From Dehalococcoidia bacterium (GTDB lineage Bacteria; Chloroflexota; Dehalococcoidia; GIF9; UBA5629), in the NCBI GenBank assembly GCA_016783155.1, contig JADHXB010000006.1, forward strand, positions 1 to 35,911: 35,911 nucleotides of DNA, given 5' to 3'. The notes beneath the pieces were generated by a model. That model searched no databases. It was not told the DNA's origin and saw only the letters and a list, made by a program, of their open reading frames with translations. Within the stretch, counting starts at the first letter, position 1. Every line of letters starts with the position of its first letter. Positions 7,631-34,627 of the stretch are shown here, one piece after another. Position numbers and translations under genes: made by a program.

Positions 7631-8731
7631 TTGGAAATCTGCATCATCGGGCTGCCCAAGAGCGGCAAGACAACGATTTTCAATGCCTTAACCAAGGGAA
7701 AGGCTGACACTAAAACTTACGCCACAACTGCCGCAACTCCTAACATTGGAGTGTCTAAGGTGCCAGAACCTAGACTGCAAGTTCTGGACAGAATATTCCA
7801 TCCTAAGAAGGTAACGCCGGCTGAGGTCAAATATGCTGATATTGCCAGCGCAGCTAAAGGCTTAGACAAGGGAGATGGAATTGGTGGCCAGTTCCTTAAC
7901 TATCTAAGTAACGCTGATGCATTGCTCCAACTAGTCCGAGCCTTTGAGGATGAAAACGTGCCTCATGTAGATGGTAGTATCGACCCGAAACGCGATATAG
8001 CTACGATAGACTTGGAGCTTGTCTTCTCTGATTTGACCATAATTGATAGAAGGCTGAAGCGACTTGAAGATTCTTTGAAGGGTGCTAAGCCATCAGAACG
8101 CGACCTGCTCCTGAAAGAGCAAGCTCTACTTCAAAAGATCAAGTCAGAATTAGAAAAGGATGTACCGATCTGGCAGCAAGGTTTAACTGCTGAGGAATTT
8201 AGAAGCCTGGCCAACTACCAGTTTCTCACTGCCAAACCTATGCTATTGGTCATCAACGTTGGAGAGAATCAGTTAGCACAGGCTTCTTCCCTCGAAGCTG
8301 AAATACGCTCAGCATACTCCCACTCTCAATTCGAGGTAGTCGTCTTATGTGGTAAGTTGGAAATGGAATTAACCCAACTCAGCGATGATGAAGCTGTAGA
8401 ATTTCGTAATGCTCTGGGCCTGACTGAGCCGGCAGTTGATCGCATAATCAGACTTTCCTATCAACTCCTGGGGTTAATCTCTTTCTTCACCACCGTCTCC
8501 GAGGAATTAAAATCCTGGACAATCACCAAAGGAACAACTGCCTTAAAAGCCGCTGGCAAAATCCATTCCGACATCGAAAAGGGATTTATACGGGCGGAAG
8601 TTGTAGGTTTTAACAATTTAGACAAATGCGGCAGCCTGGCTGAAGCCCGAAAACACGGCCTGCTCAGACTAGAAGGCAAAACCTACACCGTGCAAGACGG
8701 TGATATAATAACCTTCCTGTTTAACATTTAG
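7631..8731 (+). CDS. ychF: YchF/Obg-like P-loop ATPase with C-terminal TGS-like region (TTG start)
   Basis: MEICIIGLPKSGKTTIFNALTKGKA, PAEVKYADIASAAKGLDKGDGIGGQFLNYLSNADALLQLVRAFED, C-terminal GFIRAEVVGFNNLDKCGSLAEARKHGLLRLEGKTYTVQDGDIITFLFNI. Confidence 0.88.
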   Translation: MEICIIGLPKSGKTTIFNALTKGKADTKTYATTAATPNIGVSKVPEPRLQVLDRIFHPKKVTPAEVKYADIASAAKGLDKGDGIGGQFLNYLSNADALLQLVRAFEDENVPHVDGSIDPKRDIATIDLELVFSDLTIIDRRLKRLEDSLKGAKPSERDLLLKEQALLQKIKSELEKDVPIWQQGLTAEEFRSLANYQFLTAKPMLLVINVGENQLAQASSLEAEIRSAYSHSQFEVVVLCGKLEMELTQLSDDEAVEFRNALGLTEPAVDRIIRLSYQLLGLISFFTTVSEELKSWTITKGTTALKAAGKIHSDIEKGFIRAEVVGFNNLDKCGSLAEARKHGLLRLEGKTYTVQDGDIITFLFNI

Positions 8732-8858
8732 AGGAAACCGCCCTCATTCAAAATTATGTCACTTCAAGAGAACTATAAGTGGTGTCGCCATCTTCAACAT
8801 CCTCATCTTAGATGGTATAATACTCCCACAGAGAGCAATTCGAACAACAAGGAGGGAT

Positions 8859-11126
8859 ATGAAACAAGGGACAAAGGTTATTGTTTGGTTTGACGAAGTA
8901 ACCAAGGATGACATTCCTCTAGTAGGTGGCAAGGGGGCCAACTTGGGTGAGATGGTTCATGCTCGGATACCGGTGCCGCCAGGTTTCATCGTCACCGCAG
9001 ATGCCTATTTCAAATTCCTAAAAACTAGCAAGGTTATAGACGAAATCAGTGGATACCTTGAAGGCTTGGATGTTAACGATAGCAAAAAGCTTCAAGAAAT
9101 ATCAACCATCATTAAGGATAAGATTTCCAGCATACCTATGCCGCCTGACACGGTTAAGGAGATTAAAGACGCTTATCACAAACTAGGCCAAGGACTGGTA
9201 GCTGTCCGTTCCTCAGCCACAGCCGAGGACTTGCCCGAGGCTTCTTTCGCCGGGCAACAACGCACCTTCCTCAACATTCAAGGGGAAGATGCGGTAGTGG
9301 CGGCAGTACAAGGCTGCTGGAGTTCCCTGTTTGAACCAAGGGCTATATTCTACAGACAGCAGCAAGGTTTTGACCACCTCAAGGTTGGTATTGCCGTACC
9401 AGTGCAAATAATGGTGCAATCGGAGGCATCAGGAGTCCTATTCACGATAGAGCCACTGAGCAACGACACAATGAAAATCCTCATTGAAGCAATTTACGGG
9501 CTGGGTGAAGCTATTGTTTCCGGTGAAGTCACTCCTGACCAGTATTTGTTGGATAAGAGCAAAATTAGGATTCTTGACAAGCAAATTCACAAACAGGAAT
9601 GGCAACTGGCAAAGAATACAAAGGCACCAGCAGGCGAACTGGAACAGAACATTAAGATAAATGTCCCAGCCTCAAGACAAACTCTACAAAAGATAACCGA
9701 CGAGGACATAGTCGCTTTAGCCAAATTGGGCAAGACTATTGAGAACTTATATAAAACCCCACAGGACATTGAGTGGGCAAAACAAGGAACACAGCTATTC
9801 ATCCTTCAAACGCGGCCTGTGACCACCCTGAAACCAAAAGAAGAGATTAAGACAGCTCCTAAAATAGAAGCTCAAGCAATTTTAACCGGCGTTGCAGCCA
9901 GTCCAGGTATAGCCGTTGGCAAAGTTAGAATTTTACCTGAATCATCACAGATAAATAGAATTCAAAATGGTGACGTTCTTGTAGCCGAAATGACAACTCC
10001 GGACTTTGTACCAGCAATGAAACGGGCTGTTGCTATAGTCACTGACCGTGGCGGTAGAACTGCTCACGCTGCCATTGTCAGCCGTGAGCTAGGTATCCCT
10101 TGCGTCGTGGGTACAGAGGTGGCAACCAAAACTCTAAGCGATGGCCAGGAAATCACTGTGGATGGCTCACGGGGAGAAGTCTACGCTGGCAGGGTAGCAG
10201 AGCCAACAAAAACCGCTCCTGTAGTTGTTACTCAGAAACGAATAAAGACAAAAACCAAAGTCTATGTAAATCTGGCTGAGCCAGAACTAGCCGAGACTGT
10301 GGCTGCAAGACATGTAGATGGAGTCGGCTTGCTTAGAGCTGAGTTTATGATTGCACAGATTGGTGGGCATCCTAGATACATGCTGCACGAGGGGAAGGGA
10401 GAGCAGTTCATGGAAATGCTGGCTCGAAACATTACCACTTTCGCTAAGGTTTTCCACCCTCGGCCTGTAGTTTACCGGACTACAGATTTCAAAACCAACG
10501 AGTACAGGAACCTGCGCGGTGGGGACAAATATGAGGAATTTGAGGAGAATCCCATGCTCGGCTACCGTGGCTGCTCCAGATATACACGAGAAACTGAGGT
10601 TTTTAGACTCGAAGTAGAAGCTATCAAGAAAGTAAGCCAGTACTACGATAACCTATATGTCATGATTCCATTCGTCCGCTTCGTAGATGAAATGGCCAGG
10701 ATAAAGAGGTTCCTCGTAGCCGAGGGGCTATATCAGTTCCCCAATTTCAAATTGTGGATGATGGTCGAAGTGCCATCAAATGTCTTTCTCATAGACAAAT
10801 TTATAGACGTTGGCATTGATGGTGTCTCCATCGGTTCTAACGACTTAACTCAATTAATTTTAGGGATAGACAGAGACAACCCCAAGCTAGCCCCACAATT
10901 TGATGAGAGAAACGAGGCAGTGCTCATGGCTATAGAAAAAGTCATTAAGGTTTCGGTCAGCAAGGGCATCACTTCTTCCATCTGCGGACAAGCACCTTCA
11001 GTCTACCCAGAACTTACCGAGAACCTGGTGAAATGGGGCATCACCTCAGTTTCAGTAAGTCCTGACATGATTGACGAAGCAAGACGTATTATTGCTGCTG
11101 CTGAAGCGAAACTTAGCCAGACATAG
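8859..11126 (+). CDS. ppsA: Phosphoenolpyruvate synthase (pyruvate, water dikinase)
   Basis: N-terminal VWFDEVTKDDIPLVGGKGANLGEM, VRSSATAEDLPEASFAGQQ, catalytic-His region DRGGRTAHAAIVSRELGIPCVVGT, C-terminal GIDGVSIGSNDLTQLILGIDRD and SSICGQAPS; aaggagg SD upstream. Confidence 0.95.
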   Translation: MKQGTKVIVWFDEVTKDDIPLVGGKGANLGEMVHARIPVPPGFIVTADAYFKFLKTSKVIDEISGYLEGLDVNDSKKLQEISTIIKDKISSIPMPPDTVKEIKDAYHKLGQGLVAVRSSATAEDLPEASFAGQQRTFLNIQGEDAVVAAVQGCWSSLFEPRAIFYRQQQGFDHLKVGIAVPVQIMVQSEASGVLFTIEPLSNDTMKILIEAIYGLGEAIVSGEVTPDQYLLDKSKIRILDKQIHKQEWQLAKNTKAPAGELEQNIKINVPASRQTLQKITDEDIVALAKLGKTIENLYKTPQDIEWAKQGTQLFILQTRPVTTLKPKEEIKTAPKIEAQAILTGVAASPGIAVGKVRILPESSQINRIQNGDVLVAEMTTPDFVPAMKRAVAIVTDRGGRTAHAAIVSRELGIPCVVGTEVATKTLSDGQEITVDGSRGEVYAGRVAEPTKTAPVVVTQKRIKTKTKVYVNLAEPELAETVAARHVDGVGLLRAEFMIAQIGGHPRYMLHEGKGEQFMEMLARNITTFAKVFHPRPVVYRTTDFKTNEYRNLRGGDKYEEFEENPMLGYRGCSRYTRETEVFRLEVEAIKKVSQYYDNLYVMIPFVRFVDEMARIKRFLVAEGLYQFPNFKLWMMVEVPSNVFLIDKFIDVGIDGVSIGSNDLTQLILGIDRDNPKLAPQFDERNEAVLMAIEKVIKVSVSKGITSSICGQAPSVYPELTENLVKWGITSVSVSPDMIDEARRIIAAAEAKLSQT

Positions 11127-11159
11127 CATTGCAACGAAGCAGGAAAATAAACTTAAGTT

Positions 11160-12197
11160 TTGATGGTCAATCTGAACATTCGGCAGCGGATAGAGGAATC
11201 TGAAAACAGCCTTTCCTCATACGCGGCAAAAAGCAGGTTTAGCCGAGGCAGACTCAAATGGGAGGAACCTTGCCCAATACGCACAGATTTTCAGCGGGAC
11301 CGCGACCGCATCATTCACTCCAAGGCTTTTCGTCGCCTCAAGCACAAAACCCAGGTCTTTATTGCACCATCGGGTGACCATTATGTAACACGGCTGACAC
11401 ATACTTTAGAGGTTTCACAGATCGCCAGAACTATATCCAGAGCGCTGAACCTTAACGAGGATTTGACAGAGGCTATTGCTTTAGGACATGACTTAGGCCA
11501 CACCCCATTTGGTCATGTCGGTGAGCAAGTTCTAGATGAGCTTTGCCCCGGTGGATTCAAGCATAACGAGCAGAGTTTAAGGGTAGTCGATTTACTGGAA
11601 AAAGACGGTCAAGGACTGAACCTAACCTGGGAAGTGAGAGATGGCATCTTGAATCATTCCAAGAGCGGGATTGAGATACTTGGAGAAGGATGGACAGATA
11701 TTGGTACTATCGAAGGCCAGGTAGTAAAGATGGCTGACATTGTTGCTTATGTCAACCACGATACTGCCGACGCAATCAGAGCTGGCGTTATAGCTGAAAA
11801 CGAGCTGCCTGCCTCCGCAATCAGGCTTCTCGGTCACACTTCTTCTCAGCGGATTAACACACTGGTCTCCGACATCGTCAGCTATTCCTTGGCTCATATG
11901 GGCGACGTCAACCTGACAAAGGCGGTCATTGGAATAAATACAGAAATCCTAGAAGCAGCTAACAGCTTGCGTGAGTTTCTTTTTGACAAGGTGTATAATC
12001 CCAGCTTAGCTAATAAAGATACAGCAAAGGCACAAAAAGTAATACGTCTGCTGTACTCCTATCTCCTGAAACACGAAGCTACGTTGCCAAGAGAATATGC
12101 CCTGCGCGATGACACTGTAGAACGGAAGATTGCTGACTATATTGCCGGCATGACAGACCAGTATGCAATAAGGACTGCCAAAGAAATCTCATGCTGA
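11160..12197 (+). CDS. dgt: Deoxyguanosinetriphosphate triphosphohydrolase-like HD protein
   Basis: FQRDRDRIIHSKAFRRLKHKTQVFIAPSGDHYVTRLTHTLEVSQIARTISRALNLNEDLTEAIALGHDLGHTPFGHVGE (HD-domain dGTPase signature). Confidence 0.93.
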   Translation: MMVNLNIRQRIEESENSLSSYAAKSRFSRGRLKWEEPCPIRTDFQRDRDRIIHSKAFRRLKHKTQVFIAPSGDHYVTRLTHTLEVSQIARTISRALNLNEDLTEAIALGHDLGHTPFGHVGEQVLDELCPGGFKHNEQSLRVVDLLEKDGQGLNLTWEVRDGILNHSKSGIEILGEGWTDIGTIEGQVVKMADIVAYVNHDTADAIRAGVIAENELPASAIRLLGHTSSQRINTLVSDIVSYSLAHMGDVNLTKAVIGINTEILEAANSLREFLFDKVYNPSLANKDTAKAQKVIRLLYSYLLKHEATLPREYALRDDTVERKIADYIAGMTDQYAIRTAKEISC

Positions 12198-12250
12198 AAG
12201 GAAAAACTGCTTTTAGCCAGGAGTTTGAAACAGGTGATTGAGTTTTTGAA

Positions 12251-14116
12251 ATGAGTGTGATTGATGATGTAAAACAGAGACTGGATATTGTGCAGGTCGT
12301 CTCTGAATATACAAACTTACAGAAATCGGGCCGAAGTTATAAGGCATTATGTCCGTTTCATAGTGAAAAGACCCCATCGTTTTTTGTATTCCCCGAGCGG
12401 CAGAGCTGGCACTGTTTTGGAGCTTGTGGTACCGGTGGAGATATCTTCTCATTCATCATGAAGAAAGAAGGCGTTGATTTTACACAAGCACTACATCTTT
12501 TAGCTAATAAGGCAGGAGTTTCCTTGGTTGCTCTGACAACCCCAGAGAAGCAGACTCAAAACAAAGAGAGGGAAAGATTATTTGAAATAAATGAAGCCGC
12601 CGCCGAATATTACCACCACCTGTTGTTGAACACTTCTGTGGGCGAGATAGCAAGGAACTATGTGGCTAAACGAGGGCTATCACCTGAGACAATTAAGAGC
12701 TTCCAGCTAGGTTTCGCGCCAGACGGCTGGGAAACTATAAAACAGTACTTAAAGGGCAAAGGATACGAGGAAGCAGATCTGTTAGCTGCTGGTCTATTGG
12801 TAGAACGGGATGACAAAAACAGCTACGACCGATTTCGCAGTCGTTTAATATTCCCTATTCGGAACATCCAGGGAAAGGCTATAGGCTTTGGTGGCAGGGC
12901 ACTAGACGATTCTCTGCCTAAATATCTAAACTCTCCCCAAACACCAGTTTTCGACAAGAGCAGCAGCCTCTACGGGATTGACCATGCCAAAATAGCCGCA
13001 CGTCAGAAAGACCAGGCAGTAATTGTAGAAGGTTATATGGATGTTCTAACAGCCCACCAGCATGGATATGATAACGTAGTTGCCTCCATGGGGACATCTA
13101 TGACTGACAAGCAGCTGGCTATTCTTAAAAACCTGACCAAGAATTTAATACTGGCTCTTGATGCAGACACCGCAGGAGAAGAAGCCATCTCACGAAGCGG
13201 TGAGATGATAGATAAGATGCTACCAGTACCACCATCATTTTACGGGTGGGTAAAATATGAGGATGCTCACAACGCGGAAGTAAAGATTCTAGTCTTACCT
13301 CAAAACAAAGATCCAGACGATATAATCAAAGAAGATGATTCACAGTGGCAAAAGCTGATAATAGATGCTAAACCCATGATTGGCTTCATCCTTGAAACAG
13401 TAATTGCTAAAGTTGATCTAGCAAGTGCCAGAGATAAGTCTCTGGCTGTAGAAAAACTTCTGCCGCTGCTTTTCGAGATGCATGACCCGTTGCGGCAAGC
13501 CCACTATGTGGAAAGACTTGCCAAATTATTGAAAATTGATGAGCGCATTTTAGTCGATACATTGAGACGGTTCAGCATTATCGAAAGAAAACGAAAAACA
13601 ACCAAAAACATGAAGGCTTACACACCTATAGTCCCCGCTATCATTTCATCCAGTCCCCTTGAGCAATATTGCTTAGCTTTGTTGCTTCAGTATCCGGAGC
13701 TTAAGGCAGAAAGTGCGGGACTATCACCTGACTATTTTGAGAGCAGCGAAAACAAAGTGTTGTTTGTAAAATGGAAGCAAAGTGATGACCTTGCCTCTCT
13801 TGAGAATAGGCTCGACAGCGCTCTTCAAGAGTATTTGCAGAGCCTCATGTCTAGAGTCTTCCCCCCAACACTCAAAGAGAGCGAGGCAATTCGGCGTGAA
13901 ACCATCGATGACTGTGTTCTTCGCCTACAAGAGAGAAGGTTGAGAAACTTAGAGGTTGAAAAACAAGAACTTTTGGCTATTGAAGCTGAGACGGGTGGAA
14001 CAGCAGCACAATTAGCTAAACTAGAAGAGCAAGGCTTGGAAGTCAGTAAACAGCTTAGAGAGGTCTTCACCAAGCAAAAACATCGCCGACAATTAGCAAG
14101 GAGGGATGGGCAATGA
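12251..14116 (+). CDS. dnaG: DNA primase
   Basis: CHC2-type zinc finger [30 protein letters not shown]; Toprim [29 protein letters not shown] and LALDADTAG. Confidence 0.97.
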
Positions 14117-15681
14117 CCTCAGATAGCGATGAAAGGCTTCTGTCCTATTTCCCTAGGAAACGCAGAAGCAAATTGGACTCCGAGGATATTCTTGGCGTTG
14201 ATGATGAATCACTTATAAACCCGGATAATACTTGGGAAACTTTCGACAAATATGAGTCTGAAGAAGATACTGCCCAAATCGCTTTCCCATGGGAAGACGA
14301 AGAGGATGCTGAACTTGAAAATGAATTGGCAGGTAAGGAAGAGAAAGAGGATGAGTCACCGATTGGTCTTGAACTAGAGCATGTTGAGCACGAAACCATT
14401 GATGACCCAGTTCGTATGTATCTCCACGAGATTGGCAAAGTCTCACTGCTCACTGCAAACGATGAGAAGGTGTTGGCTAGCAAAATTGAGGAGGCCAAAT
14501 ATCTGGAAAAGATTGAAGCGCTTTACTTTCAGCGCCATGGCGAATATCCGTCAACAGTTGATATAGTAATATACTTGCTCCGTCATTTGCTTGCATCACA
14601 ACCATTGATCTCCATTCTTAGCAAAAGACTTAAGCTCGCTGCTACAGACAACTTCATCATGAGAATTCACGATCCAAAGCTGCGGTCAGCCATTGATAAA
14701 GTGATTGACCAAGAATTAGTGGAAGCTATTGCTAAGGACACCAATAAAAGCGCTCCCGAGGTTGAACAAAATTTTATAAGCTTCTCTACAGACAGTCGAC
14801 TCCTACCCGCAGAATTAGTCAAGCTCATAGGAGAAAAAACTACCTGGAAGCAGTTAGAATCTCTGGTCGCCGAGCCCGTCAAGCCCGAATTCCTCTCTCA
14901 GCTCCATGCACATACTCAGGAATTTAAAGCCCATTTCACTAAAGTAAAAAAAACAGCAAGGAAATCAGAAAGACACCTTACTGAAGCAAATCTACGCTTG
15001 GTGGTCAGCGTAGCCAAGAAATATGTAGGCCACGGGATGCCACTCCTTGACCTTATCCAAGAAGGGAATATCGGGCTAGTCCGCGCTGTGGAGAAATTTG
15101 AATATCGAAAAGGGTATAAATTCAGCACTTATGCTACTTGGTGGATTAGGCAAGCTATTACCCGAGCTATAGCTGACCAAGCCCGCACCATTCGTATCCC
15201 GGTGCATATGGTAGAAACTATCAATAGACTGCTAAAAGTCAACCGCCGCTTATCTCAAGAATATGGGCGTGAACCAAGTTACGAGGAAATTGGTAAGGGC
15301 ATGGAAATATCTTCAGACAGAGTAAGAGAAATCCTGAAGTTATCTCAGATGCCGATATCTTTAGAGATGCCCATAGGCGAAGAGGAAGACAGTCACCTCG
15401 GCGATTTCATTGAAGACCGAGCTACCTTACCACCAGCCGATGTCGCCTCGCAAGAATTGCTTAAGACACAATTAAACAAAATACTCTCTGAACTCACTGA
15501 CAGAGAGAGAAAGGTCATACTACTCAGATTCGGTTTGGAGGACGGACGAGCCCGAACCTTAGAGGAGGTCGGCAAGGAATTTAATGTAACCCGAGAGCGA
15601 ATCCGTCAAATCGAGGCTAAAGCACTCCGCAAACTACGTCATCCCAGCCGAAGCCGAAAGCTTAAAGACTATCTGGAATAA
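14113..15681 (+). CDS. rpoD: RNA polymerase primary sigma factor
   Basis: [72 protein letters not shown], region 4 [43 protein letters not shown] overlap with dnaG. Confidence 0.97.
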
Positions 15682-15716
15682 GCCAGCATAATATCCTGGC
15701 TGCTAGGAGGAACTAA

Positions 15717-16322
15717 ATGAGACTGATTAAAGGGATAATCATGGTCATTGGCGTAATCGGGGTTATGGTCATCTTTGCCCTGATTATAGGCTACTATCTT
15801 TACTCGCTTTCGCCTCCAATCCAAGCGAAGGTAATACCAGTGATGGGAAGCCCCGAAGCAGTCCAAAGTTTTGACCAGAAACTAGATGCGCTCGAAAGCC
15901 AAATCAAAGCCGCGGTTAACGCTGGGGAAAGTAAACAGGTAAGCTTGGTAATCACCGAGAACGAAATCAATTCCAAGTTTGCTCAAATGCTAGCCGAAGG
16001 CAAGCTGTCACCATTGAAACGTGTATTGATTAACTTCGGTGACGGCTATTTCTTAACTTATGCGGTGGTAGATACTCCTGGAATGGACGCTAGAACGGGC
16101 TTAATGGGACGAGTGGAGATTATAGAAGGTAAACCCAAAGTAGTAATAGATGAGTTCAATTTGGGCAAATTACCCCTACCGAAATCTGTAAACAGCAGGG
16201 CTGAACAACTGATGAATATCATAGTAAGCCTGCAATTACCTGAGGTGTCTCTGAATATAACCAGTGTTGAAATCAAAAATCGCGAGTTGACTGTCACTGG
16301 AACTACCAAAACCATGAAGTAA
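15717..16322 (+). CDS. Hypothetical protein with N-terminal transmembrane anchor
   Basis: Hydrophobic N-terminus IIMVIGVIGVMVIFALIIGYYLYSL then soluble region; aggagg-type SD upstream (ctaggagg); 201 codons, no confident family. Confidence 0.75.
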   Translation: MRLIKGIIMVIGVIGVMVIFALIIGYYLYSLSPPIQAKVIPVMGSPEAVQSFDQKLDALESQIKAAVNAGESKQVSLVITENEINSKFAQMLAEGKLSPLKRVLINFGDGYFLTYAVVDTPGMDARTGLMGRVEIIEGKPKVVIDEFNLGKLPLPKSVNSRAEQLMNIIVSLQLPEVSLNITSVEIKNRELTVTGTTKTMK

Positions 16323-16330
16323 AAGTTACC

Positions 16331-17662
16331 TCACCGCCCCAGCATACCCATCAAGTTTTTAGGCAGTTTTCCTTGTGCCGCCATTTTAGCTAGTTTTTGC
16401 ATCTGGTAGAATTGATTCAGCAATTGATTGATGTCCCTGGTTGTTGTTCCACTGCCCTGCGCGATACGCCGCCTTCGACTCCCATTAACAATAGCTGGGT
16501 TACACCTCTCTTCTGGAGTCATTGATAGGATAATAGCCTCAATTTTTCGCATCTGGCTCTCCTCACCACCTTGAGGGATACTGGAGGCAAGTTTCGAAAA
16601 ACCAGGTAACAATTCAACTAATTGAGTTAGTGACCCCATTTTCTTAAGCTGACGTAACTGCCCCAAAAAGTCTTCAAGATTGAACTCCATGGTGCGCATC
16701 TTTTTCTCTAGCTGCTTGGCATGCCGCTCGTCAAAAACCTTCTCTGCCTTCTCAATGAGAGTAAGTACATCCCCCATACCCAAAATGCGAGATGCCAAGC
16801 GATCTGGATAAAAAGGCTCAAGTGCACTTGCTTTTTCGCCGGTGCCAATGAATTTTACTGGAATTCCCGTGACGAACTTGATGGAAAGAGCAGCACCACC
16901 CCGAGCATCCCCATCCATCTTAGTCAAAATAAGCCCGGTCAAGCCGATACTCTTGTTGAACTCCTCAGCTGTGTTTACTGCATCCTGACCGGTCATAGCA
17001 TCAACTATCAATATCACCTCTGAAGGGTGAATTTCAGATTTCAGTTGTGCCAGTTCCTTCATCATTGCTTCATCAACGTGAAGACGTCCTTGAGTATCAA
17101 TAATCACCCAAGTAGCTGCCATCTCTTGGGCTCTCTTTAGAGATCGGCGGCAGATAGCTAACGGTGCCGCCTTAGCATTCTCACTTGAGACCGGTATGTC
17201 CAACTGTTTACCCAGCATCACTAACTGATCAATAGCAGCCGGTCGGCGCGTATCAGCAGCCACTAGCAAAGGATGCTGTCCAGTGCTTTTAAGATGCAGA
17301 GCCAACTTAGCTGCTGTAGTAGTCTTCCCCGAACCCTGCAAACCGACAAGCATGGCAATAGAAGGTGGCCGACTAGCTGCCACAAGATGATTACGCTCCT
17401 TACCTAAGATATTTATGAGTTCTTCGTTAACAATTTTTATGATTTGCTGAGCTGGAGTGAGACTCTCCAATACCTGGGTGGTCAAAGCCCGCTCCCTTAC
17501 ACCAGCAAGAAAACTTTTCACCACTTTAAAATTAACATCGGCTTCCAGAAGAGCTAAGCGTATCTGCCGCAAAGCTTCATCAATATCTTTTTCACTGAGC
17601 CTCCCCCTACTGCCGAGGCTACTGAATACCTTGCCTAGTTTTTGGGTCAGGACTTCAAACAT
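16331..17662 (-). CDS. ffh: Signal recognition particle protein (SRP54)
   Basis: GLQGSGKTTTAAKLALHLK, VAADTRRPAAIDQLVMLGKQ, WVIIDTQGRLHVDEAMMKEL, LTKMDGDARGGAALSI, Met-rich M domain. Confidence 0.97.
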   Translation of the reverse strand: MFEVLTQKLGKVFSSLGSRGRLSEKDIDEALRQIRLALLEADVNFKVVKSFLAGVRERALTTQVLESLTPAQQIIKIVNEELINILGKERNHLVAASRPPSIAMLVGLQGSGKTTTAAKLALHLKSTGQHPLLVAADTRRPAAIDQLVMLGKQLDIPVSSENAKAAPLAICRRSLKRAQEMAATWVIIDTQGRLHVDEAMMKELAQLKSEIHPSEVILIVDAMTGQDAVNTAEEFNKSIGLTGLILTKMDGDARGGAALSIKFVTGIPVKFIGTGEKASALEPFYPDRLASRILGMGDVLTLIEKAEKVFDERHAKQLEKKMRTMEFNLEDFLGQLRQLKKMGSLTQLVELLPGFSKLASSIPQGGEESQMRKIEAIILSMTPEERCNPAIVNGSRRRRIAQGSGTTTRDINQLLNQFYQMQKLAKMAAQGKLPKNLMGMLGR

Positions 17663-18546: not shown

Positions 18547-19371
18547 ATGATTCCAGTCAGACTCGCACTCAAAAACTTCATGTGTTACCGAGACAATATG
18601 CCACCATTGTCTTTCGACGGCATACACGTGGCCTGTCTTTCCTGTCTTTGTGGTGATAATGTTAATGGTAAATCAGCACTTTTTGACGCCATAACCTGGG
18701 CACTATGGGGCAAATCCCAAACCAGGAATGACGATGACCTGGTTCACCTGGGACAATCCGAGATGGAGATAGAGCTAGAGTTCTTCTCCAGCGAACAACG
18801 ATATCGAGTCATCCGCAAGCATACTAAGAAACCCAGCAAGACACGTGCTGGACAGACTATCCTAGAACTTCAGATAGCTAACAATGGAGCTCTCAGGCCT
18901 ATTTCTGGTAATTCGCTGCTGCAAACCCAGCAGAAGATAATCGAGATTCTGAACTTGGATTACGAGACATTCAAGAACAGCGTCTTCCTTCGCCAAGGAC
19001 ATGCTGACGAATTCAGTATCAAGCGCCCTGGGGAGCACAAAGAGATACTCGCCAACATCCTCGGCTTATCTCATTATGATGAGCTTGAGAGAAGAGCCAA
19101 AGACATAGCCAACGATAGAAAAATCGAAGCGGGTATGCTTGAGAATGCTATCAATGAAATCGAACTTCAACTTGCAACTAAACCTAAACATGAGGATGAG
19201 ATTAGAAAAATACAGAACGAAATCAACCAACTTGAAGCAGGCAGAAAATCTGCAAACGTATGTTTGACACACACAAGCAATGAAAGCTACCATACATGCT
19301 TGTTCGCCTCGAAAAATCGAAGACAAATAAGGAAGGCCAAAGAAATCCTCTGTGAACACAAAGCTATATGA
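18547..19371 (+). pseudogene. sbcC: Truncated SbcC/Rad50-like ATPase (N-terminal half only)
   Basis: LALKNFMCYRDNMPPLSFDGIHVACLSCLCGDNVNGKSALFDAITWALWGKSQTRNDDDLVHLG, Q-loop VFLRQGHADEFSIKRPGEHKEILANILGLSHYDELERRAK; no C-terminal signature or Walker B half; last ~45 aa lack coiled-coil character. Confidence 0.8.
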
Positions 19372-31829: not shown

Positions 31830-32339
31830 ATGTACATTAACGTTGCTCAGTTACTCAAGGAACCAACAGGCTCAAGCCGTAGCTTCCAAATAGACGAGAG
31901 CCTTGGTACGGACGACATAAATTCTGTTAAGGGTGAGGTAACCTTAATCCGCACCAATCGCGGTATCATGGCTAAAGCTGAGATGACAGCAGGCGTGACA
32001 GGAATTTGCAGTCGGTGCCTCAAACCGATTGACTATGATGTAAACTATGACTTTAACGAGGAATGTCTCCCTAGCGTAAGTACTTCCGAAGGTTTATCTT
32101 CACCTGATCAGACCGATAATATTAATATAGACGAGAGCCACATGCTGGACTTAAGCGAAATAATACGCCAATATACCTTGCTGACTATGCCGATCAAGCC
32201 GCTTTGCCGTCCAGACTGTGCTGGAATCTGCCCATCCTGCGGACATAACCTTAATCAAGGCTCCTGCCAATGTCCGTCTCATGCCCACGACCAGCGCTGG
32301 TCCAAACTAATCCACTTGGGGAGGGAAAGTAAAACCTAA
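31830..32339 (+). CDS. yceD: YceD/DUF177 family protein
   Basis: TGICSRCLKPIDYDVNYDFNEECLP, CRPDCAGICPSCGHNLNQGSCQC; immediately upstream of rpmF. Confidence 0.93.
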   Translation: MYINVAQLLKEPTGSSRSFQIDESLGTDDINSVKGEVTLIRTNRGIMAKAEMTAGVTGICSRCLKPIDYDVNYDFNEECLPSVSTSEGLSSPDQTDNINIDESHMLDLSEIIRQYTLLTMPIKPLCRPDCAGICPSCGHNLNQGSCQCPSHAHDQRWSKLIHLGRESKT

Positions 32340-32640: not shown

Positions 32641-33585
32641 ATGGTAGAAGCAATAAAAGTCGCTTATGTTTTCACCGGACAGGAATCTCATTCTGTAGGC
32701 ATGGGTTTAGACCTTTATGTTCATTACTCTTCAGCCAGGGAAGTTTTCGATGAAGTTGACAAAGCTTTGGGTTTCCCTCTGTCGCATCTATGCTTTGAAG
32801 GCCCTGAAGACGACCTCAAGCAGACCGTCAATGTCCAGCCAGCCGTATTAGCCACAAGCATTGCCTGCCTGAGAGCAGCTCAGGAGGTTAGCAACAATGG
32901 CATACCAGAGCCAACCTTCGTCGCTGGACATGACATGGGCACCTACGCAGCTCTGGTAGCTGCTGGTGCTCTCAGTCTGTCTGATGCCGTGCGCTTGATT
33001 CGCGAGAGAGGACGATTAATGAACGAAGCCGGGCAGAGAACAGCCGGCGGCATGGTATCTATGGCCGGCCTGGATATAGAAGTCTTCAAGAACATCTGCT
33101 TCTCCACAGGTGTTGAGATTGCCTATATAGACGCTCCGGACCAGGTCACCATCAGCGGCACTCAGGAAAGCCTGACCAAAGCCAAGAGGCTAGCGCAGAT
33201 AAAAGGGGCTCGCCGCATTATACCCCTAAGAGTAAGCGGGCCTTTCAATTCCTCGCTTATTGAGCCAGCCATAACAAGATTAAGAAATGCCATTTCCGAG
33301 TTTACCTTCAATAAACCATCAATTCCGGTTGTGGCTAATGCTACTGCCCAGCCGCTTACCGACCTGGAAGCGATAAAGGAGGAGCTGGTTAGCCAGATTG
33401 TCCGCCCAGTTCAATGGCAGCAATCTATTGAAAATATGATCGCCCGAGGAGTAACCACCTTCTTTGAGATGGGGCCTGGTGAGGCACTGACCAAGTTGAT
33501 TAAGCGAATCAGCCCCGGAGCACAGACCTTTAACATCAGCAGCGCTCAAACCATCAGTGAAATAACAAGCTGGCGCAGAGGATAA
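32641..33585 (+). CDS. FabD-like malonyl-CoA:ACP transacylase homologue lacking the Ser-His catalytic dyad
   Basis: FabD fold landmarks retained (VFTGQESHSVGMG, QPAVLATSIA, RERGRLMNEA, RPVQWQQSIENMIARGVTTFFEMGPGEALTKLIKRI), but GHSxGE reads GHDMGT and the VSGPFHS-type motif reads VSGPFNS. aaggagg SD upstream. Confidence 0.92.
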   Translation: MVEAIKVAYVFTGQESHSVGMGLDLYVHYSSAREVFDEVDKALGFPLSHLCFEGPEDDLKQTVNVQPAVLATSIACLRAAQEVSNNGIPEPTFVAGHDMGTYAALVAAGALSLSDAVRLIRERGRLMNEAGQRTAGGMVSMAGLDIEVFKNICFSTGVEIAYIDAPDQVTISGTQESLTKAKRLAQIKGARRIIPLRVSGPFNSSLIEPAITRLRNAISEFTFNKPSIPVVANATAQPLTDLEAIKEELVSQIVRPVQWQQSIENMIARGVTTFFEMGPGEALTKLIKRISPGAQTFNISSAQTISEITSWRRG

Positions 33586-33899
33586 CAACTGGCACACCAT
33601 AATGTATGGGCTGCGCTTAATCAGATTGTTAGAACTCAGGGTGCGAATAGCCAAGATGCTGAAACGCAGCCCACCCTACAGAACCACTACCACCTGTGAT
33701 AACTGCGTCAAGAAATCCACCTTAATCTCCAATGCCCTCAGCCTATTTATCGATTATATCCGTCACGATTTCCAAAAGGTCGACCCACAATCCAGGAAGC
33801 ACATTGTAAATCAAGGCAATTCTTCAACCTGCCACCACAACCACCCAAGGCAAAAAATGGCGTTACTTGCCATCTATGTCTTGAGGAATTAATATCAGA

Positions 33900-34352
33900 A
33901 TGACTGGATTTAGACGTAAGGCCAGGATTATTGCCCTACAAACATTTTACGAGCTTGACTGTTCTACTCACAAGCCGAAGGAGATTCTGACTCGCTTACT
34001 GAAAGAAAAAGCCCTGCCTGATGAAGCCGCCGATTTTACCAGAAGCCTGGTTAACGGGGTTCTTCAGAACAAGAAGGACATAGATGATGTGATTCAAAGG
34101 TTCGCTCCCTCCTTTCCCGTCAATCAAATAGCCACCATAGACAGAAATATTCTCCGCCTTGCCATTTTTGAGATTTTATTCGATAATAGAGTTCCGGTTA
34201 AAGCGGCTATTAATGAAGCCGTTGAGCTGGCTAAGAGTTTTGGTAGTGATGCTTCTAAAAAATTTATCAACGGGGTTTTGGGTTCAGTAGTTACTGCCTG
34301 TATACAGCAAGGGGAACAACAAAAAGGGATTGAGGGAACTGAGCAAGCCTGA
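33900..34352 (+). CDS. nusB: Transcription antitermination protein NusB
   Basis: RRKARIIALQTFYELDCS, LVNGVLQNKKDIDDVIQRFAPSFPVNQIATIDRNILRLAIFEILFDNRVPVKAAINEAVELAKSFGSDASKKFINGVLGSV. Confidence 0.96.
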   Translation: MTGFRRKARIIALQTFYELDCSTHKPKEILTRLLKEKALPDEAADFTRSLVNGVLQNKKDIDDVIQRFAPSFPVNQIATIDRNILRLAIFEILFDNRVPVKAAINEAVELAKSFGSDASKKFINGVLGSVVTACIQQGEQQKGIEGTEQA

Positions 34353-34369: not shown

Positions 34370-34627
34370 ATGGCACTCATTTCAGAAAAGCTTAAGAAAA
34401 TGATTGCGGAGCAACTCGGCGTTGACGAGGAATCAATAGAGCCTTCAGCATCCTTCGTTGACGACCTCAATATTGACCCCCCGGATTTAGCCGAGCTTAT
34501 CACAGCCATCGAACAGGAATTCAGCAGGCCGGGACGAAAGCTGGAGATATCAGACGAAGATACCGATAAAATCGTTACCGTTCAGGACCTCATAGACTGC
34601 CTCCACGACTACGGCATAGAAGACTAA
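34370..34627 (+). CDS. Acyl-carrier-protein-like protein lacking the phosphopantetheine serine
   Basis: ISEKLKKMIAEQLGVDEESIEPSASFVDDLNIDPPDLAELITAIEQEFSRPGRKLEISDEDTDKIVTVQDLIDCL: ACP four-helix pattern, but the DSL motif reads DPP. Confidence 0.92.
   Translation: MALISEKLKKMIAEQLGVDEESIEPSASFVDDLNIDPPDLAELITAIEQEFSRPGRKLEISDEDTDKIVTVQDLIDCLHDYGIED

Follow-up and report, generated by a model that had tools for sequence, protein, structure and literature searches.

In a family of uncultured Dehalococcoidia (Chloroflexota), an acyl carrier protein (ACP1) and its partner, a malonyl-CoA:ACP transacylase homologue (FabD1), have lost their catalytic residues, and sequence comparison indicates that both have very probably been maintained under purifying selection, as a pair without catalysis whose function is independent of fatty acids. 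The window analyzed here, meaning the whole stretch of DNA at its full length of 35,911 nucleotides (positions 1–35,911 of contig C13), belongs to a 1.45 Mb source genome that is 77% complete. Its family is designated f1, and the ACP1 counts refer to genomes G000–G028, which yielded 26 orthologues.

Loss of the Phosphopantetheine Serine in ACP1

The ACP1 gene is located at positions 34370–34627 of the forward strand and encodes a protein of 85 amino acids. It was assigned by Pfam and NCBIfam profiles, by family alignment, and by a predicted model. Matches to the PP-binding family (PF00550, E 5e-10) and to the NCBIfam acyl carrier protein model NF002148 (E 3e-22) were both above cut-off, and the model showed the four-helix ACP fold, with the E. 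coli and B. subtilis ACPs among its best PDB matches. Sequence and fold thus both place the protein in the acyl carrier protein family, and it is the orthologue of the housekeeping ACP at the ancestral yceD-rpmF-fabD-nusB-acp locus.

The open reading frame contains SFVDDLNIDPPDLAELITAIEQEF, and the start of helix II reads NIDPPDL. In the original prediction, the DSL motif was reported to be replaced by DPP, with proline at 34478–34480 in place of serine and the next leucine also changed to proline. The codons at 34475–34483 (forward strand) agree: GAC (34475–34477) encodes D36, CCC (34478–34480) encodes P37, and CCG (34481–34483) encodes P38. In the alignment, these three residues replace Asp-Ser-Leu, and Pro37 occupies the position of the serine that bears 4'-phosphopantetheine in a functional holo-ACP. 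With this serine absent, the view that holo-ACP cannot be formed by the normal route is borne out at the level of sequence; ACP1 is a genuine ACP orthologue that should be unable to carry phosphopantetheine. The rest of the protein, which had been described as intact, indeed retains the modelled ACP fold and a net charge of −16; among the orthologues, D39 and E42 are retained and D36 is mostly retained.

Sequencing or assembly error as the source of DPP was ruled out by an independent contig, L109, and by 21 relatives with proline. Over the final 2,002 bp of the window, contig L109 shows 99.6% identity and specifies the same ACP1 protein, so the DPP triplet is not an assembly error. This contig belongs to the NIOZ-UU13 series, which is presumably of Black Sea origin. 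Despite its near-identity to this part of the window, it is recorded under a Planctomycetota MAG (NIOZ-UU13), where it was probably mis-binned.

The alignment of homologues, suggested earlier as a check for conserved proline, revealed proline at the phosphopantetheine site in 22 of the 26 family ACP1 proteins, glycine in one (G016), alanine in one (G017), and serine in two, so that 24 of 26 lack serine. The proline variants were DPP, DPS, DPE, DPD, DPN, APP, GPS, and EPS. Serine was kept only by G010 and G021, as DSA and DSS. Aligned orthologues of families f2 and f3 and of other families of the class carry DSL, and the f4 genome G032 has two ACP copies, one of the DSS and the other of the DSL type. 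When 84,980 species genomes were scanned with two patterns, one of them containing proline, serine-less proteins came from the window's group only; the distant matches carry serine. In genome G019, the ACP1 gene (L049; L022, positions 1498–1752) has an in-frame TAG codon (DDIA*FFTT), while the gene of its sister genome G005 is intact. The other 25 family copies are intact open reading frames.

Within the serine-less clade, only P37 (18 of 19) and A41 (19 of 19) were newly fixed, while residue 38 drifts freely among P, S, D, E, and N. Helix II of ACP1 is predicted by the model to begin at residue 37. The first turn of a helix behind an aspartate is a position that suits proline (helix-capping). 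Since Pro37 lies in this first turn behind Asp36, the site looks refitted to a protein that stays in the apo form, and not decayed.

FabD1, the Inactivated Partner

The FabD1 gene (32641–33585, forward strand) encodes 314 amino acids and scored 282.8 bits against TIGR00128, above the cut-off of 260.9. The predicted model has the FabD fold (pLDDT 91, TM-score about 0.9 to FabD structures), so that membership in the FabD family is indicated by sequence and fold alike. The GHSxG nucleophile and the catalytic histidine of an active FabD are both missing. Motif alignment placed Asp98 (32932–32934, forward strand) at the nucleophile serine, giving GHDMG for GHSLG, and Asn203 (33247–33249, forward strand) at the catalytic histidine of AFHS, giving GPFNS for GAFHS. 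In addition, Glu15 (32683–32685, forward strand) occupies the glycine position of the GQGSQ loop, where Glu or Asp was found in 19 of the 19 dead copies aligned.

Across the family, the nucleophile serine was lost in 20 FabD1 copies, and 17 of those 20 had lost the histidine as well. The FabD at the yceD-rpmF-nusB-ACP1 locus is live in G007, G010, and G021. Live FabD has 142 conserved positions, of which 86 were kept in at least 90% of the dead copies and nine were lost (kept in at most 30%); five of these nine (G15, Q17, S98, L99, and H203) fall within the three catalytic motifs. The net charge of dead FabD1 (−3.5) was close to that of live FabD (−3.7); no newly basic FabD1 was found, and hence nothing that points to a new surface for RNA binding.

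In the phylogenetic tree, the dead f1 FabD1 proteins group together in a single clade (98/93), with the live FabD1 of G007 next to it. A possible parallel case was observed in the sister-family genome G032 (L060/L177), where a FabD1 without catalytic serine and histidine lies beside the DSS-type ACP and a second, live FabD-ACP locus is present. A single origin of dead FabD1 including that of G032 was not rejected (AU p 0.39), and the losses in G032 may be shared or independent.

Genomic Neighbourhood

The pair shares its locus with yceD, for the 23S rRNA accumulation protein (31830–32339, PF02620), and rpmF, for ribosomal protein L32 (32340–32540, TIGR01031), and nusB (33900–34352, TIGR01951) ends 17 bp upstream of ACP1; all three are on the forward strand. 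Wherever the contig extends far enough, the FabD1-ACP1 pair adjoins rpmF and nusB. Since the yceD-rpmF-nusB neighbourhood is ancestral, being present in outgroups positive for fatty-acid synthesis (FAS) as well, it provides weak evidence for function.

Two gene fragments were also observed in the window. Between fabD1 and nusB (33602–33892) lies what is left of a radical SAM gene, with 61% identity over 44 residues to the beginning of the G001 gene; the gene is intact in G001 and was found also in G003, G004, G007, G008, and G030. At 18547–19371, an SbcC/Rad50-like open reading frame of 274 amino acids covers only profile positions 1–226 (of 1043) and overlaps the next gene (19352), corresponding to a truncated SbcC.

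Fatty-Acid Synthesis Genes in the Family

Several f1 genomes have a separate live FAS cluster with the order ACP2 (DSL)-FabF-AcpS-FabK-FabD2 (GHS/AFH)-enoyl-CoA hydratase-PlsX-FabF, the gene families of which were confirmed for G002, a single-contig genome of the window's genus. In most FAS-positive relatives, this cluster is sited away from the FabD1-ACP1 pair; in G007, G010, and G021, it lies, whole or in part, inside the yceD-rpmF...nusB-ACP1 locus.

In other members, these genes were missing. The ketosynthase (KAS, PF02801) was not found in 17 of 30 f1 genomes, compared with 1 of 54 sister-family genomes (Fisher p 7e-9). Among the 17 f1 genomes lacking it, no AcpS or other phosphopantetheinyl transferase was found in 15, and no PP-binding protein other than ACP1 in 13. 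In thirteen draft relatives with ACP1, no KAS, AcpS, or other PP-binding protein was found, the pattern of FAS absence with ACP retention known for the mitochondrial ACP (mACP) of Plasmodium. The genomes are mostly or all MAGs, and FAS absence is read from drafts; four of the FAS-lacking genomes (G003, G014, G018, and G022) are 92–98% complete with at most 2% contamination.

No KAS was found in the window's own 77% complete draft genome, in which AcpS and a second ACP are present. As to the canonical acpP raised in the original prediction, this second ACP bears the serine but is located in an unrelated cluster. This cluster (L140, G000:C9, positions 7712–17024) combines the ACP (KAKSVNF) with AcpS, a phosphotransacylase, a butyrate-kinase-like protein, an AMP-binding ligase, and a CocE-like hydrolase.

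When mapped on an f1 tree of neighbouring non-FAS genes, the presence of FAS changed eight times, a count in which gains and losses are formally inseparable. The FabD2 proteins of the relatives cluster broadly as their host genomes do, which favours repeated loss, and FAS appears to have been lost repeatedly in f1. PlsY was present in 60 of 60 genomes searched and FakA in 52 of 60, so that outside fatty acids may be usable via acyl-phosphate. Most f1 genomes encode 3–7 PlsY-type acyltransferases, and G007 encodes 11, compared with mostly 1–5 in sister families. Replacement of fatty acids by archaeal-type lipids was rejected, as GGGPS (PF01884) gave only weak C-terminal fragments, just over the cut-off in 1 of 60 genomes.

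Selection on the Pair

The dN/dS ratios, determined by the NG86 method for genome pairs, ranged from 0.04 to 0.17 for ACP1, except for one near-identical pair with four changes (0.46), and from 0.03 to 0.165 for FabD1. In pairs lacking FAS, the FabD1 values were 0.034 (G009/G020), 0.051 (G014/G022), 0.027 (G025/G026), and 0.082 (G018/G026), in each of these four pairs below the value for NusB. Among 28 genome pairs, which are not independent of one another, 26 showed stronger conservation of dead FabD1 than of live FabD2 (mean 71 versus 59%). In genomes with both copies, conservation of ACP1 (57%) was about equal to that of ACP2 (61%) and NusB (58%). The dN/dS values and the conservation of FabD1 exclude plain decay and indicate a function independent of transacylation and phosphopantetheine.

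The original prediction concerned ACP1, and its interpretation was incomplete rather than wrong; the inactivated FabD nearby, the live second FAS cluster in relatives, the absence of FAS genes elsewhere, and the strong purifying selection go beyond it.

Discussion

Taken as a whole, the explanation considered likely is that the dead pair is retained for a task outside FAS, with binding as the lead mechanism. Fatty-acid synthesis in f1 is encoded by the cluster that brings its own set of live proteins (ACP2, FabD2, FabK, FabF, and AcpS) and seems to be absent from many members, while ACP1 and FabD1 at the ancestral locus lost their catalytic residues yet stayed under purifying selection. Both proteins would then act by binding, and the retention of FabD points to a role involving FabD itself.

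Two observations from human mitochondria bear on the nature of this role. Human MCAT, bound to intermediates of the mitoribosomal small subunit, holds rRNA elements apart (PMC9892005), and mtACP is part of the MALSU1 assembly module of the large subunit (PMC11452305). These are FabD and ACP homologues that bind in ribosome assembly, apart from catalysis, and human MCAT (structure 8csp) is a match of FabD1 in sequence and fold. This precedent, together with the ribosomal neighbourhood, makes ribosome assembly the lead mechanism: FabD1 and ACP1, singly or as a complex, may bind rRNA or a protein partner in ribosome or rRNA maturation. The proposal is drawn by analogy and is put forward tentatively as a hypothesis; MCAT and mtACP, unlike the f1 pair, also keep their role in FAS.

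The main rival is Fe-S assembly, in which ACP1, with or without FabD1, would bind and stabilise cysteine desulfurase through a surface independent of phosphopantetheine. The serine-less mitochondrial ACP of Plasmodium falciparum, which has no phosphopantetheine and was retained after the loss of FASII, serves this very role with Isd11-Nfs1 (Falekun et al. 2021, PMC8547962). In E. coli, the contacts of ACP with IscS involve Asp35, Asp38, and Ser36 (PMC13343975), and the equivalents of the two aspartates, D36 and D39, are mostly kept in ACP1. However, the S36T substitution in E. coli ACP abolishes IscS binding, and IscS is stimulated by acyl-ACP only (PMC13343975). As binding in E. coli needs Ser36, the rival is weakened; it also leaves the parallel retention of dead FabD unexplained, and it is considered unlikely.

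New chemistry, with a different group attached to ACP1 or with a ligand or metal newly bound in a remodelled FabD1 pocket, would account for the constraint on pocket residues 15, 98, and 203 within subclades, with Glu or Asp at 15 in all dead copies aligned and Asp or Gly at 98 and Asn or Tyr at 203 in most. However, these residues vary from subclade to subclade, and no new nucleophile was fixed in ACP1, where only P37 and A41 are new; such chemistry is improbable. About as improbable is a regulatory part for the dead pair, as a decoy or an allosteric partner for live FAS enzymes: many f1 genomes contain both the dead pair and the live cluster, but the pair is also kept, with dN/dS of 0.03–0.12 in most pairs, in genomes where no FAS genes were found. 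That the pair is a functionless relic, decaying after FAS moved or was lost, is scarcely credible, because the missing catalytic residues and the in-frame TAG of G019 are set against 25 intact ACP1 frames, dN/dS far below one, the newly fixed Pro37, and the stronger conservation of dead FabD1 compared with live FabD2.

A non-catalytic pair, possibly acting in ribosome maturation, can be compared with known systems. Retention of a serine-less ACP after FAS loss is already known from apicomplexan mitochondria. ACP1 resembles the Plasmodium protein, its nearest known parallel, in lacking the phosphopantetheine serine, in its retention where FAS genes are missing, and in the non-FAS function proposed for it. 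In contrast to that protein of a eukaryotic organelle, for which no dead FabD is described, ACP1 comes from a free-living bacterial lineage, its serine was replaced mostly by proline, and FabD was inactivated too. E. coli ACP is a moonlighting hub that binds SpoT, MukB, and IscS (PMC3340395, PMC8602292, PMC13343975); unlike ACP1, it is still a FAS carrier, and its interaction with IscS, at least, needs Ser36. The housekeeping AcpP and FabD of FAS-II share orthologous sequence, fold, and neighbourhood with ACP1 and FabD1, whereas the attachment serine and the catalytic serine and histidine are present only in the former. A limited search of open-licence literature returned no bacterial lineage with FabD and ACP both inactivated under selection, and likewise no report of a serine-less bacterial ACP or of FAS loss in Dehalococcoidia.

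In a broader and rather doubtful extension, FabD and ACP would have served bacterial ribosome biogenesis since ancient times, independently of fatty acids, in the role seen later for MCAT and mtACP, and f1 would preserve both solely for that role, as a pseudoenzyme and pseudo-carrier pair, after FAS had split off or been lost.

For the family itself, the apparent repeated loss of FAS raises the question of where membrane lipids come from. Beyond the family, with active sites erased and selection strong, these bacteria represent a natural experiment in which what ACP and FabD do outside FAS is separated from fatty-acid synthesis. The reasons for the moonlighting partnerships of ACP and FabD (in mitoribosome assembly, in Fe-S assembly, and with MukB and SpoT) thereby become testable, as does the question of whether these roles are older than mitochondria.
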